A stretch of DNA of 64,000 nucleotides from Tilletiaria anomala UBC 951 (taxonomy: Eukaryota > Basidiomycota > Exobasidiomycetes > Georgefischeriales > Tilletiariaceae). The stretch lies in assembly GCF_000711695.1 (NCBI RefSeq), contig NW_013546969.1, forward strand, positions 53,192 through 117,191, in the 5' to 3' direction. Within the stretch, counting starts at the first letter, position 1, and each line of letters begins with the position of its first letter. Shown here piece after piece: positions 33,069-64,000 of this stretch. The notes beneath the pieces were generated by a model. The model did not search any database, was not told the DNA's origin, and saw only the letters and a list, made by a program, of their open reading frames with translations. A program made the translations under genes and the position numbers.

Positions 33069-34052
33069 TTAGACAAATTTCCAATCTACCGTGAAGCTGT
33101 TCATCACCTGTTCTTCGGGGTTGGCCAGCTTGTTGAACAGTCCAGGTGAAAGGTCGACTGAGTAGGGACCGCTGCAACCAGGGCACGTGTCTTCGATCGT
33201 AGCTTGGACCGTCTTTCCGTTGTGCATCAACTCGATTTTGCGACCGCAAAGCGGGTTGTTGTTCGGGTTGGCAGACCACTTGGCTGTCATCATGCCCGCA
33301 TTCAGCGCGAGGATGTTGTCATCGTCGCTGTACTGCCCGCCGCAGGAGGTGAGACCGACGGATGGGTTATAGAATGTCGCCTTGCCGCTGTACGAACTAC
33401 CGCCGGCGCTTCCACTGCCGCTGCTGATATGTGAAGAACTAGGCGACTGGGGCTGCTTGATGTTGGTCTTTGGCTGGGGGGAAGGCGTGCTAGTGGGGGC
33501 AGCAGCACGGCTGGTCGTGCTCGAGCTTCCATCCTCGCTGCCAACCGTGTTGTCGCTCCCGCTGCTTTGGTCCTCGTTGCTGCTGGAAACACTGACGCTG
33601 CTGGCAACACTGCCGCTGTTGGCAACACTGCCGCTGTTGGCAACACTGCCGCTGTTGGCAACACTGCCGCTGTTAGTGCTGCCAACCTGCGGCATGCCAC
33701 CATGAGCTGCGGCGAATTGGTCAAACGTGGGCGGTGTCTGACCTTGCTTTTGCGCCTCGAGGACGGCCTGCTGCCACTCGGAGTTCATCTCGTGGAACTT
33801 GTCGTTCCAGGCATTGAGCGCAGCCTGCTGCGCGAGCTGGTCCTGCGTCGCTCGGCTGACGAGGGAGACGTGGGGGATGCGGTGCATGCGCCGGCCCTGG
33901 TGGTGCGACATGGCGCGTGCGTGCGCGTGTGCGGCGCCCACAAAGGAGCCTGGCCATGCGGCCAGGCCACCTTCAGCTGCCACTGGGGCCGCGTTGAAGC
34001 TGAGATGAAGCAGCGCTGCTGCCAGGAAAAAGGGTTTGAAGATTGCGAGCAT
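33069..34052 (-). CDS. secreted expansin-like/DPBB-domain protein
   Basis: Single-exon frame of 327 residues. An N-terminal signal peptide is clear (AIFKPFFLAAALLHLSF, cleavage after about AAPVAA). A His/Arg-rich stretch, a Gln-rich helix and a long Ser-rich linker with four SGSVAN repeats follow. The C-terminal about 100 residues are a double-psi beta-barrel of the RlpA/expansin/loosenin type: GKATFYNP, SCGGQY, ILALNAGMM, NPLCGRKI, TCPGC and the catalytic-type Asp in YSVDLSPGLF. Cysteines fit two disulphides. No cellulose-binding domain is attached. Such proteins loosen cell-wall polysaccharides non-hydrolytically or bind chitin/peptidoglycan-like polymers; the target here is unknown. The Ser-rich linker should be O-glycosylated. 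Confidence 0.85.
   Translation of the reverse strand: MLAIFKPFFLAAALLHLSFNAAPVAAEGGLAAWPGSFVGAAHAHARAMSHHQGRRMHRIPHVSLVSRATQDQLAQQAALNAWNDKFHEMNSEWQQAVLEAQKQGQTPPTFDQFAAAHGGMPQVGSTNSGSVANSGSVANSGSVANSGSVASSVSVSSSNEDQSSGSDNTVGSEDGSSSTTSRAAAPTSTPSPQPKTNIKQPQSPSSSHISSGSGSAGGSSYSGKATFYNPSVGLTSCGGQYSDDDNILALNAGMMTAKWSANPNNNPLCGRKIELMHNGKTVQATIEDTCPGCSGPYSVDLSPGLFNKLANPEEQVMNSFTVDWKFV
33598..33678. repeat. 18-bp minisatellite in expansin-like gene
   Basis: Four nearly perfect tandem copies of an 18-bp unit (plus strand TTGGCAACACTGCCGCTG). On the minus strand each unit encodes the hexapeptide SGSVAN in the Ser-rich linker. A degenerate fifth unit flanks it. This is a typical length-variable coding minisatellite. 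Confidence 0.85.
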
Positions 34053-46982: not shown

Positions 46983-47085
46983 TGCTGTAACTGGGAATCG
47001 AACCCAGGTCGTTTCGAGATCTTCGCATTGCTCAGTGAACAAGCTTGGATGGCAACGAAACAGTATGCCACTAACCCATTACAGC
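46983..47085 (-). tRNA. tRNA-Gly(GCC) with 32-nt intron, solitary copy
   Basis: Reading the minus strand, the mature 71-nt tRNA is 47085-47050 joined to 47017-46983 with discriminator A. The acceptor stem (GCTGTAA/TTACAGC) and anticodon stem (TTTCG/CGAAA) are fully paired, the T arm is CTGGG-TTCGATT-CCCAG, and the anticodon loop TTGCCAT matches glycine GCC. The intron (47049-47018) sits after position 37, the canonical place, and contains a short hairpin. A box and B box (GGTTCGATTCC) are intact. A T7 terminator follows. Near-identical copies form the array at the right end of the window. Confidence 0.92.
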
Positions 47086-59182: not shown

Positions 59183-62100
59183 ATGAAAATGGCACCTTAT
59201 CCGGTGCTCGGCACAGACGACCCTCGTCCCGTGCGTGCTGTCCATATCCGCTCCATTCGCGAAAGGCGGCTAGGCGAGTTCATCGGCGGTCAATATGGTC
59301 AGTTCAATTTGGCCAGCTTGCTGTTCGAGGCCAGGACCGACAAGTTGGACGTCATCAAGCTCGCTCGATGGGACCCGCCGAGCGGGTCCAAACCGAGCTT
59401 CGACCAGGCCGTCCAGCAGGATTACAAGCCATGTAAGAAAGGCGAGCTTTTTGGCCCTAGCTGGTAAGAATCACCACTCTGGCTAGGTGTTTCGCTTATT
59501 TTCGCTCATGGCCCCTTCCTTCCGATCTCAGGACTAATCACTGGGTCAAGGTAGATATCAAGGTCCCTGAGGAGTGGCGCGAAAAGGAGTGGCTACAGCT
59601 CGAATTTGATCCAGGATGCGAGGTTCGTGGATACTGTGCGAGTCTGACGAGAACGCAGGTTCTGAATTATTCTTATTCCAGGCTATGATTTTCGATGTCG
59701 ACGGACTGCCGTTACAAGGCATCACCGGCGGCTACGAGGACAATCGTCGAGTCGACTTTCCTTTGTCGCCAGCCATGCGCCACGGTGTGCGATTCTACAT
59801 TGAAGTATCGGCGAACGCAATGTTTGGCTTGCCGTCAGTCTCCGAGGGTGGCGACCCAGATCCGAACAGGTACTTCCAACTGGCTTCGGCAGACGTCGTC
59901 GTCAAGCGTCCCGGGGCGTGGAAGCTGATGTGGGATTTCAATACGCTTCGCGGCTGCGTCGACGAGATGCCCCGCGACGGCATTTTGCAAAACAAGGCGC
60001 TGTGGGTGGCCAATGAGATCCAGAACACGTTCAGAAAGGCAGATCTCAGCAGCATAGACAGATGCAGGAAAATTGCGGAGGAGGTACTTGGCCAGCACTG
60101 GGAGCGCTCGGGACACCAGATCTTCAAAAAGGAGAATGCCGCAGAGCCGACGGTGATCGCGATAGGCCACTGCCACATTGACAGCTGCTGGCTTTGGCCG
60201 AGAAGCGTGACGCAGCAAAAGGTGGCGAGATCTTGGTCGACGCAGCTTGCCCTGATGGAACGCTACCCTGAGCATCGCTTCATCGCCAGCCAGGCAGCTC
60301 AGTTCAAGTGGATGGAAGAACTCTACCCTAAGCTTTTTGCCAAGATTCAGGATGCAGTCAAAGCGGGCACTTTCCAGCCGATTGGAGGTTCGTGGGTAGA
60401 GTGTGACGCTAATGTGAGCAAGTTTGCCATCCCGCAAGCGGTTTTCACGCTGACCGACCAAACTATTGATCCGCAACACAGCTCCCCAGCGGAGAGGCAT
60501 TTGTCCGCCAATTCTTGTACGGCCAACGCTATCTACTGACGCGATTCGGTCAGCGGTCAAACGTCTTTTGGCTGCCTGACTCTTTCGGCTACAATGCGCA
60601 AATTCCGCAGCTCGCAAGAAGCGCTGGTCTCGACTACTTCATGACACAAAAGCTCTCATGGTCCAACGTCAACACCTTCCCCCACAGCACCGTCATGTGG
60701 CAAGGCCTCGATGGCTCGCAGGTGATCACGCACTTCAGTCCCGTGGACAACTACGATTCGCAATGCGGCGTCAACGACATCACAAAGTGCATTCGGAACA
60801 ACAAAAACTTGGACGTCCAGCCGACAGGACTGTTGCTATACGGGTTTGGCGATGGAGGTGGAGGCGCAACAGAAGTTATGGTTCAGAATCTGAGACGTGC
60901 CCGGGCGGTCCATGAAAATGGCCATTTTGAAATGCCGAAAGTCACCATCGCCAAGTCCATGCCAGACTTCTTTGACAATGTTACGAAGATCACAGAGGGG
61001 GGCCGACGCTTGCCCGTCTGGTCTGGAGACCTCTATCTTGAGTTCCACCGCGGTGTCTTTACAAGCCACGGGTCTATCAAGCGCTGGAACCGGAAGTTGG
61101 AGATCCTCTTGCACAACGTCGAATGGACATGCACCTTGGCCAGTGTGCAGGATGCGTCCTTCAAGTATCAAAAGGACGAGCTCGACGCATTGTGGGAGAT
61201 GCTCCTCTTCAACCAGTTCCACGACATTCTTCCAGGCTCGAGCATTCACATGGTGTACGATGACGCCGAACACGACTATGCTGAGATCGAGCGCAGGGCT
61301 TACAGCTTGCTCAAGGCGGCACACGCCACGCTCTTCGCCCCGGCGCCTCTCGGCACGTTCGCGGCCTCCAATACTCTTGCGCTTCCCAGACGCGAGCTGG
61401 TAGTGGTACCCATTGGACACCCTTCGCAAGCTCCATTTGGCTTTGTCAACATGACTCCGGACCAATCCAAGGCAGTCTGCATTCTCGAAGATCCAACGGG
61501 CTGTGGACTTGCCGTTCATCGACCCTGCGCTCTTTCTGCACTACACGCTGCCGAAGCCTTCGAGAGTGAGTGCTTGTTTTGGTGGAGGAAGAGTGAGCAT
61601 GCGCTGACCCGTGCCGATACCCTTCTTTAGCCCGTGAACAGGGTCGATCCCATAGTATTTACGTCCTTTGCAATGCCTTCCTCGCCGTCCGCGTAGAGCA
61701 CGGTCGTATCACGTCCATCCATGACAACCTGTCTAAGCGCGAGCTTCTTGCCCGTGGTCGCACTGCAGGCTTGACGATCTACGAGGACTACCCTCCAAGC
61801 TTCGATGCCTGGGAAACAGAGATGTACTCGCTCGACACGGAGGAGGAGATCGCCTTCGACAGCATCCGCGTCGTCCAGAAGGGTCTACGGGATGCGGGTC
61901 TTGTGTTGGAAGCATCATTCGGCAAGAGCAAAGTGAAAATGGTGCTGAGTCTGGGTATGCTGCCCGCAACGGCCATCGCATCTGATGAGGACGCGCGTGC
62001 ACCTCTTGTGATTCAAACGGAGATTGACTGGCAGGTAAGTTCCCGGAGACATGATGTGTTGCATTTCCGAATCATCGCTCACGTCCATGCTGTGCAGGAG

Positions 62101-63046
62101 AAACATCGGTTCCTGCGTTTCAGTGTCCCAACCGCATTGCAAGCTGCTGAAGCGTCGTATGAGACGCAATTTGGACTTACAAAGAGGCCGACGCATCGCA
62201 ATACGTGGGCACCTAGTGCGGCGGGCTCTTTCGTTCGCTTGCAATGCTGACCATCTCTCTTCTTCACAATCAAGATCTTGGGACGCCGCGAAATTCGAGG
62301 CGTGCGGCCATCGTTTCGTCGACCTATCGGAGCCTGCCTATGGGTGCACTCTGGTGACCGACTGCAAGTACGGCTACTCCGTCGAGGGCGGGACGATGCG
62401 TGTATCTCTGCTCAAAGCGGGCACTTACCCTGATGCCCACCAAGACGAGGGCAAACATGTCGTAAACCTCGCCGTTTACCCGCACGTCCATGCCCTCGAG
62501 CAGAGCGACGCGATCTCGTACGCTCGCATCTTCAACAATCCCATGGATGCGATTATGCAGGCCGCGCCGTGCCCGCACGTGCCTTCCGTCAGCATGGTCT
62601 CCGCTTCAACCAACATCGTAATCGATACGTTGAAGCGAGGGGAGGCAGACTTTTCATACTCCTCCTTGAAAGCGAGTGGTCAAAAGTCGATCATTCTCAG
62701 GCTCTATCAGGTGATTCGAGCAGATTGCCTCCGCGTTCAAAAGGAATGCCTCACTTACATCCTTCGATTTCTCATGCTCCAGTCCGTGGGCACGCACGAG
62801 AAAGCGACCTTGCAAATGTAGGAGCTTCATCTTCTTGAAGTAGGTAGCAGGAGCTGACACTGGTGTTTTGCCCTTGACAGTGCCAACATTCCAATCAAAA
62901 GCATTACGACGACAAACATTCTGGAAGACGATGTCGAAGCTGCATGCTCCTTTGACACAGTTGAACCATTCGACAACCTTACCCACCGGATCCCGCTCGT
63001 CTTCCGACCCTTCGAGGTCAAGACGCTGCGAATGGTCTTGCACTGA
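59183..63046 (+). CDS. AMS1: GH38 alpha-mannosidase, Ams1-like
   Basis: Nine exons: 59183-59463, 59532-59622, 59682-60413, 60482-61565, 61631-62034, 62098-62204, 62275-62710, 62783-62817 and 62881-63046; 1111 residues. Ams1 is the vacuolar/cytosolic alpha-mannosidase that trims free oligosaccharides; yeast Ams1 reaches the vacuole by selective autophagy. Visible marks: YPVLGTDDPRPV start, FGPSWTNHWVKV, CEAMIFDVDG with GITGGY, the metal site IGHCHIDSCWLWP (about residue 285), the catalytic FWLPDSFGYNAQIPQ (about 402), NQFHDILPGSSI (about 613), IYEDYPPSFDAWETE, and PTHRNTSWDAAKFEACGHRFVDLSE. There is no signal peptide, as in Ams1. Two introns (62035-62097 and 62711-62782) are multiples of three. 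One donor is GTTCGT (59623). The alternative start is ATG 59189. Confidence 0.92.
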
Positions 63047-63666
63047 CCAACTACTTGGAGAAAGAGCTGCTGCTGCGTCTGCAACCGTGCCGCCATTCTT
63101 CCCTTAAGCCCGTAATGTACTTCCGGCTTTCTGATGTAAAATGATAAGAACAGCGAGTAATTAGAGCTCTGCTTGCGCATCTGTGATTCATGAGGAAAGG
63201 GTTGGATGCAAGCAGCGAGGAAGGATATGCGCGCTCCTTCGGCGGTCTCCCTTATTCTACCTCTTCATAACGTCCGCGTCAGACCCGCTTCTTCTTCTTT
63301 CCATAGCTACGCCAACTTCTTGCACTGCTCAACGCATCTCCGAGGGTCGCCATTATTCCCCATTCGTCAAGACTTGTCTTTATCGGGGGTCCTCTTGGAC
63401 CTTGTTTGGACGGCCTCGAGCGCTGCTGTGTGGCAACTTGTTAGTCGCCATTGGCTCATCGGCCATCCCATTAGGATGAGGAAGACGCTTAATAAGAAAG
63501 AACAGAAGGGCACATGCAGGTGGCGCAAGGGGCAAGCTGCTTGCACAGACGACTCCCAAAGCAAATTACCCGGGTAATTTATCAGACAAATACATTCCTT
63601 GAGGCTCTTAAATTGAATCTATTGGGCGGGTATTATACTAAAGGTATCTAGTTGCAACATCAAGGA
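63047..63666. other. intergenic before tRNA array
   Basis: About 620 bp after the alpha-mannosidase stop, holding its 3' UTR and the 5' flank of the tRNA array. The last 12 bp before the first tRNA (AACATCAAGGA) resemble the flank of the solitary tRNA copy. No gene was recognised. Confidence 0.4.
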
Positions 63667-63769
63667 GCTGTAATGGGTTAGTGGCATACTGTTTCGTTGC
63701 CATCTAAGCTTGTTCACTGAGCAATGTGAAGATCTCGAAACGACCTGGGTTCGATTCCCAGTTACAGCA
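63667..63769 (+). tRNA. tRNA-Gly(GCC) array copy 1, 32-nt intron
   Basis: Exons 63667-63702 and 63735-63769, intron 63703-63734 after position 37. Perfect 7-bp acceptor and 5-bp anticodon stems, loop TTGCCA|T, B box GGTTCGATTCC, discriminator A. The intron differs from the solitary copy at two positions. A 10-bp spacer without T-run follows. Confidence 0.92.
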
Positions 63770-63779
63770 TTCCTCCCCA

Positions 63780-63856
63780 GCTGTAATGGGTTAGTGGTAT
63801 ACTGTTTCGTTGCCATGGATTTCGAAACGACCTGGGTTCGATTCCCAGTTACAGCA
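63780..63856 (+). tRNA. tRNA-Gly(GCC) array copy 2, 6-nt intron
   Basis: The same mature tRNA body (63780-63815 plus 63822-63856), with one D-loop change relative to copy 1. The insert after position 37 is only 6 nt (63816-63821, TGGATT). All stems stay paired. Whether such a short intron can be spliced is uncertain, so this may be a pseudogene or a donor in gene conversion. Confidence 0.85.
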
Positions 63857-63866
63857 CACTCTTATC

Positions 63867-63969
63867 GCTGTAATGGGTTAGTGGCATACTGTTTCGTTGC
63901 CATCTAAGCTTGTTCATTGAACAATGTGAAGATCTCGAAACGACCTGGGTTCGATTCCCAGTTACAGCA
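63867..63969 (+). tRNA. tRNA-Gly(GCC) array copy 3, 32-nt intron
   Basis: Exons 63867-63902 and 63935-63969, intron 63903-63934. The body is identical to copy 1. The intron has C-to-T and G-to-A changes; the latter converts a T-G pair of the small intron stem (TTGTT/AACAA) to T-A, and the former is in the loop. Another 10-bp spacer follows. Confidence 0.92.
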
Positions 63970-63979
63970 TTCGTTGCCC

Positions 63980-64000
63980 GCTGTAATGGGTTAGTGGCAT
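63980..64000 (+). tRNA. tRNA-Gly(GCC) array copy 4, cut by window end
   Basis: The first 21 nt (GCTGTAATGGGTTAGTGGCA and one more base) match the 5' end of copies 1 and 3. The array therefore continues beyond the window. Confidence 0.8.

Follow-up and report, generated by a model that had tools for sequence, protein, structure and literature searches.

In Saccharomyces cerevisiae, a tRNA-Arg gene and a tRNA-Asp gene, separated by about 10 bp, are transcribed together as a pair. Dimeric genes transcribed by RNA polymerase III (pol III) are abundant in Yarrowia lipolytica, where the coding sequences lie 5-26 nt apart (PMC5014426), while in S. pombe a dimeric tRNA-Ser/tRNA-Met precursor, which features a 16-nt intron in its upstream tRNA, is cut to monomers and can be cleaved by purified RNase MRP (PMC4234475). 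In the yeast Trichomonascus vanleenenianus, 16 of the 110 nuclear tRNA genes occur in tandem and 22 are fused with 5S genes (PMC13130702). In addition, head-to-tail clusters of tRNA genes have been described in plants (PMC12652284) and head-to-tail arrays in Entamoeba (PMC2888827), while the available portions of three further reports (PMC10085805, PMC8450103, PMC5499181) contain no closer parallel to the locus considered here. A literature search across titles and abstract openings, in which older papers are thinly covered, named no fungal array of at least four tRNA genes with the same anticodon. The view of a preliminary description of this DNA, according to which dispersed single tRNA genes are the norm in fungi, overlooks the abundant dimeric pol III genes of Yarrowia (PMC5014426).

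The locus in question is an array of tRNA-Gly(GCC) genes at the right edge of a 64,000-nt stretch of Tilletiaria anomala UBC 951 DNA, hereafter the window (C53:53192-117191). It is a longer, same-anticodon member of the known kind of dimeric pol III genes, and what is unusual about it is the length of the Gly series as well as the fact that each of the five tight arrays found in this genome is built of one tRNA. The S. cerevisiae Arg/Asp unit is a pair only and joins two different tRNAs, unlike the Gly array; likewise, the S. pombe dimer consists of two different tRNAs, whereas the Gly array is a longer series of near-identical, intron-containing ones. Compared with the Yarrowia dimers, five same-anticodon arrays are present here, their internal spacers are devoid of runs of four or more T (T4+), and the Gly series comprises four genes or more. 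As for Trichomonascus, the available text of the report describes no four-gene array with a single anticodon such as the one found here (PMC13130702). An Rfam search of the assembly for 5S yielded no match among the 47 of 912 candidates scored; the 5S genes of this fungus would be divergent, missed because only part of the candidates was scored, or absent from the assembly. Probably, as judged from the sequence, the Gly array constitutes a polycistronic pol III unit that gives rise to one precursor.

The array occupies the last 334 bp of the window (63667-64000) with every copy on the plus strand. Searching the window with the Rfam model RF00005 recovered three whole tRNA genes in the array and one solo copy; copies 1, 2 and 3 score 51.3, 56.1 and 51.3 bits against a gathering score of 29, and all three match the model over its full length, including the A- and B-box regions. 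Copy 1 (63667-63769) and copy 3 (63867-63969) are 103 nt long and carry a 32-nt intron after position 37, while copy 2 (63780-63856) comprises 77 nt with an intron of 6 nt. According to the intron parse, the GCC anticodon resides in a loop that is opened by an intron at the canonical position and closed by a 5-bp anticodon stem, the identity as glycine tRNA being taken from the anticodon alone. The three spacers (63770-63779, 63857-63866 and 63970-63979) measure exactly 10 bp each, and a sequence scan found a T4+ run in none of them. Hence, the head-to-tail arrangement of intron-containing tRNA-Gly(GCC) genes on one strand, the exact 10-bp gaps and the lack of T4+ runs between the copies, all claimed in the preliminary description, are borne out. 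A fourth copy is represented by its first 21 nt (63980-64000), identical throughout to nt 1-21 of copy 1; it is a fragment because the window ends where contig C53 ends, at 117,191. The 5' flank of copy 1 (63607-63666, plus strand) features a TTATA motif from 34 nt upstream and AACATCAAG immediately 5' of the gene. The latter sequence also directly precedes the solo tRNA-Gly(GCC) gene (46983-47085, minus strand; 51.3 bits), which lies 16.6 kb from the array, has its own TATA-like box and a T7 run, and provides a single-gene comparison for the array copies. ARAGORN without introns detected only one tRNA gene in the window, with unclear anticodon, and Rfam was used instead; minimum-energy folding of four single genes returned no cloverleaf and was left out as evidence.

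How far the array continues has to be judged from the remainder of the assembly (18.4 Mb in 202 contigs). Outside the window, a whole-genome DNA search listed one place for the Gly gene, the start of C124, which begins inside such a gene (95 of 103 nt) and proceeds with AACAACCAAATAC and then a T6 run. The intron of this copy deviates from that of copy 3 by 1 nt. The end of C53 and the start of C124 overlap by 13 nt, which lie wholly within the common 5' exon and are the sole link between the two contigs, and the Gly array probably finishes at the start of C124. The Gly copy number is a minimum of four if C53 and C124 belong together, and more copies are possible. The claim of at least four copies in the window thus stands for three complete genes, the fourth being present there only in part. 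To the right, C53 stops, the start of C124 would supply the last copy with its T6 run, and the count stays at four or more.

Four further contigs, C89, C134, C147 and C151, have their first letters within tandemly arranged tRNA genes, namely Ala(CGC), Ala(AGC), Ala(TGC) and Glu(CTC). The spacers between the same-anticodon copies measure 16 bp in Ala(CGC), 21 bp in Ala(AGC), 20 bp in Ala(TGC) and 13 bp in Glu(CTC), the last read from match coordinates; hence, the exact 10-bp spacing is not a genome-wide feature, the other arrays having 13-21 bp. Partner contig ends were found at the right of C113 for Ala(CGC), of C134 for Glu(CTC) and of C81 for Ala(AGC), with overlaps of 34, 30 and 28 nt, of which those of Ala(CGC) and Glu(CTC) contain copy-specific intron letters. 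These two arrays would fit simple pairs, in which identical extra copies could be hidden. For Ala(TGC), a partner contig end was looked for in the assembly and not found. Within C81:85540-86183, the first copy of the Ala(AGC) array is preceded at a distance of 377 bp by a solo gene of the same anticodon that has a T6 run, which parallels the solo Gly gene near the Gly array.

Every tight tandem found sits at a contig end and the Gly array lies exactly at the end of C53, which raises the question of whether it is an assembly artefact of contig ends. Collapse or false duplication would not produce copies that differ as these do, with introns of 6 and 32 nt, changes in the introns and in the D loop, and unrelated spacers. 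The Ala(CGC) and Glu(CTC) overlaps with their copy-specific letters also speak against an artefact, which we regard as extremely improbable. The placement would be explained by an overlap-based assembler failing on such repeats. If the arrays are real, they may well break draft assemblies, so that tRNA copy numbers taken from drafts may be undercounted.

The association with contig ends was approached from several sides. In a survey of both ends of 80 of the 202 contigs, drawn at random, tight arrays were present at 2 of 160 ends (C89 left and C151 left); the remaining surveyed ends were checked with crude T-arm plus A-box patterns and BLAST of 30 known tRNA genes, while the 122 undrawn contigs were covered by the whole-genome searches only. 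Near the right end of C57 lies one lone tRNA gene that is followed by a T run. The genome-wide Rfam search for tRNAs gave at least 44 matches among the 62 of 390 candidates scored. Closely spaced B-box patterns, which miss tRNAs with unusual T loops, detected tight tRNA pairs at contig ends only, and a tight pair in a contig interior is possible. In a relaxed form, the B-box pair pattern had 23 matches compared with 37 in the control, with tandem tRNA pairs, as judged by eye, only at the ends of C53, C89, C134 and C147; consensus pair patterns hit the same four ends plus one place in C145, which by eye was judged a chance match. The bare B-box pattern (152 matches, 147 in the control) was uninformative. 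The Gln(CTG) genes at the ends of C143 and C82 do not count as a tight array, since the one on C143 has its own T5 run.

The distribution of T runs sets the internal copies apart from other tRNA genes. Forty-nine genes, part of the genome's set, were fetched, 45 of them single or last in their array and four internal; three further internal spacers, of Ala arrays, were read from contig starts, and only 4 of the resulting seven spacers come from non-Gly arrays. As in the Yarrowia type of gene, neighbours on the same strand lie 5-26 nt apart (10, 10 and 10 nt in Gly; 16, 20 and 21 nt in Ala; 13 nt in Glu) and the upstream member is devoid of a full terminator: T4+ runs occur in 0 of the 7 internal spacers of the five tight arrays, compared with 45 of 45 single or last genes, in which the run starts 0-14 nt downstream. 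Inclusion of a 46th gene, Glu(CTC) copy 2 with its T5 run, gives a Fisher p of about 6e-9 (46 vs 7). A spacer of 10-21 bp without T4 is mostly expected by chance, and a single spacer says little. Four loose pairs (Thr, Leu, Met and one on C30), whose genes are 70-85 bp apart, have a T run after each gene; therefore, the absence of the run goes with tight spacing. At the far ends, T5 runs follow the last Ala and Glu copies and a T6 run follows the C124 Gly copy, which is joined to C53 by the short exon overlap only.

T runs are also found within genes. In the tRNA-Arg(TCT) gene at C16:9532-9634, the intron holds a T5 run that might be a hindrance to pol III, and T4 runs lie inside one Gln(TTG) and one Ser(TGA) gene. 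Because such T4 or T5 runs are located within three other tRNA genes, a T4 run alone may not always be a pol III stop in this genome.

A second distinction concerns the upstream region. TATA-like motifs between -48 and -18 precede 29 of 44 other genes, that is, genes that are single, first in an array or second in a loose pair, as opposed to none of the six later copies in tight arrays (p 0.003), with a background of 18 in 437 60-mers; the motif list was drawn up after viewing the flanks and later widened by one word, and the count leaves out one gene with a short upstream stretch as well as the C82 and C124 genes, which are cut at their 5' ends. Since the -30 region of the later copies is the preceding tRNA, the missing motif is partly a structural necessity. 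Moreover, 15 of the 44 genes have no TATA-like motif by the same test, from which it appears that TATA may not be required for initiation here.

These observations bear on where transcription begins. The A and B boxes are retained in each complete copy, which could therefore initiate alone, and this speaks against a single start. If each copy did so and read through to the common terminator, a set of nested transcripts with one 3' end would ensue in place of one full-length precursor, an arrangement that is compatible with a polycistron. The match of the three complete copies to the tRNA model throughout both box regions agrees with such internal starts, and the genes without a TATA-like motif indicate that TATA-free initiation is possible. 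On the contrary, the place of TFIIIB for the later copies would be the 3' half of the preceding gene, where all six are devoid of a TATA-like motif; in any case, readthrough would still yield multi-tRNA precursors, the difference lying in the starts only. Independent starts are thus unlikely, although they deserve some weight.

For the polycistronic unit, the following course of events can be proposed. The TATA-like box and leader before copy 1 would direct the start of transcription in concert with the internal A and B boxes. Pol III would then read through four or more intron-containing tRNA-Gly(GCC) genes, the 10-bp spacers being free of T runs, and stop at the T6 run that follows the final copy, which lies on C124 if that contig holds the same array. 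Subsequently, each 5' end would be generated by RNase P, the 10-nt linkers would be trimmed off by tRNase Z or exonucleases, and splicing would involve the tRNA endonuclease. Because the inner copies have no U-tail, their 3' maturation should be independent of La. The single pol III transcript that the preliminary description suggested has the gene anatomy in its favour, namely the spacers without T4+ and the later copies without a TATA-like motif; the single transcript itself, its processing and the release of several tRNAs per initiation are what we infer from this anatomy. The four further arrays, three of Ala and one of Glu(CTC), follow the same layout. It is conceivable, though rather doubtful, that this fungus supplies high-demand tRNAs (Gly-GCC, three Ala and Glu-CTC) from homomeric polycistronic operons, some possibly far longer than assembled. 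In that case, tRNA supply would be determined by the number of copies that each transcript carries, and the inner tRNAs, the one with the 6-nt intron among them, would need no La-bound U-tail for their maturation. If the polycistronic reading is true, fungal pol III polycistrons would extend from pairs to at least four near-identical intron-containing tRNAs, and the array copies and the solo gene would constitute a natural system for comparing 3' processing with and without a U-tail on the same tRNA.

With respect to the origin of the array, copies 1 and 3 have the same exon sequence as the solo gene and, as far as it is present, the C124 copy, whereas copy 2 is one base off copy 1, in the D loop. 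The 32-nt introns of these four genes (copies 1 and 3, solo, C124) deviate pairwise at 1 to 4 positions. The tRNA arrays of Entamoeba repeat whole units, spacers included; in contrast, the Gly spacers differ from copy to copy, pairwise comparison revealing 1, 6 and 3 identical positions out of 10. Recent copying of a whole gene-plus-spacer unit is disfavoured because the spacers are unrelated while the gene bodies are near-identical, and a recent copy would leave spacers that are alike; gene conversion within the array would fit better, as would a duplication of old date under strong selection. Of what the preliminary description suggested as an alternative, a recent amplification is hence not favoured, while concerted evolution agrees with the near-identical gene bodies, introns included except that of copy 2. 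By contrast, the two Thr(AGT) introns of one loose pair are strongly divergent.

All 30 tRNA genes that were parsed contain an intron, of 26-35 nt in 29 of them and of 6 nt in copy 2; two further genes of the T-run table (84 and 92 nt) must have shorter introns, if any. That a 6-nt intron resides beside 32-nt introns of the same gene within one array is an observation in its own right. For splicing, the eukaryotic tRNA endonuclease appears to require a base pair between the intron and position 32. The 6-nt intron keeps a candidate partner, an A located three bases 5' of the 3' splice site. Given an intron so far below the usual length, copy 2 might remain unspliced, and the array might be a duplicated one with silent or failing inner copies, which would be compatible with a polycistron for the other copies. 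This appears improbable: the exons are identical or, in copy 2, deviate by a single base, and copy 2 has the top tRNA-model score of the three.

In the vicinity of the array, Pfam identified parts of a gene for an alpha-mannosidase of glycosyl hydrolase family 38, which lie just upstream on the same strand (window 59616-62821), and a PDB search with one neighbouring protein returned no match. Pfam also matched Mrp51, a fungal family; like the 18.4-Mb genome and the introns in the tRNA genes, this is in keeping with a fungal source. Farther upstream, an 18-bp tandem repeat of 5.3 copies, GCTGTTGGCAACACTGCC, is located at window 33579-33674.
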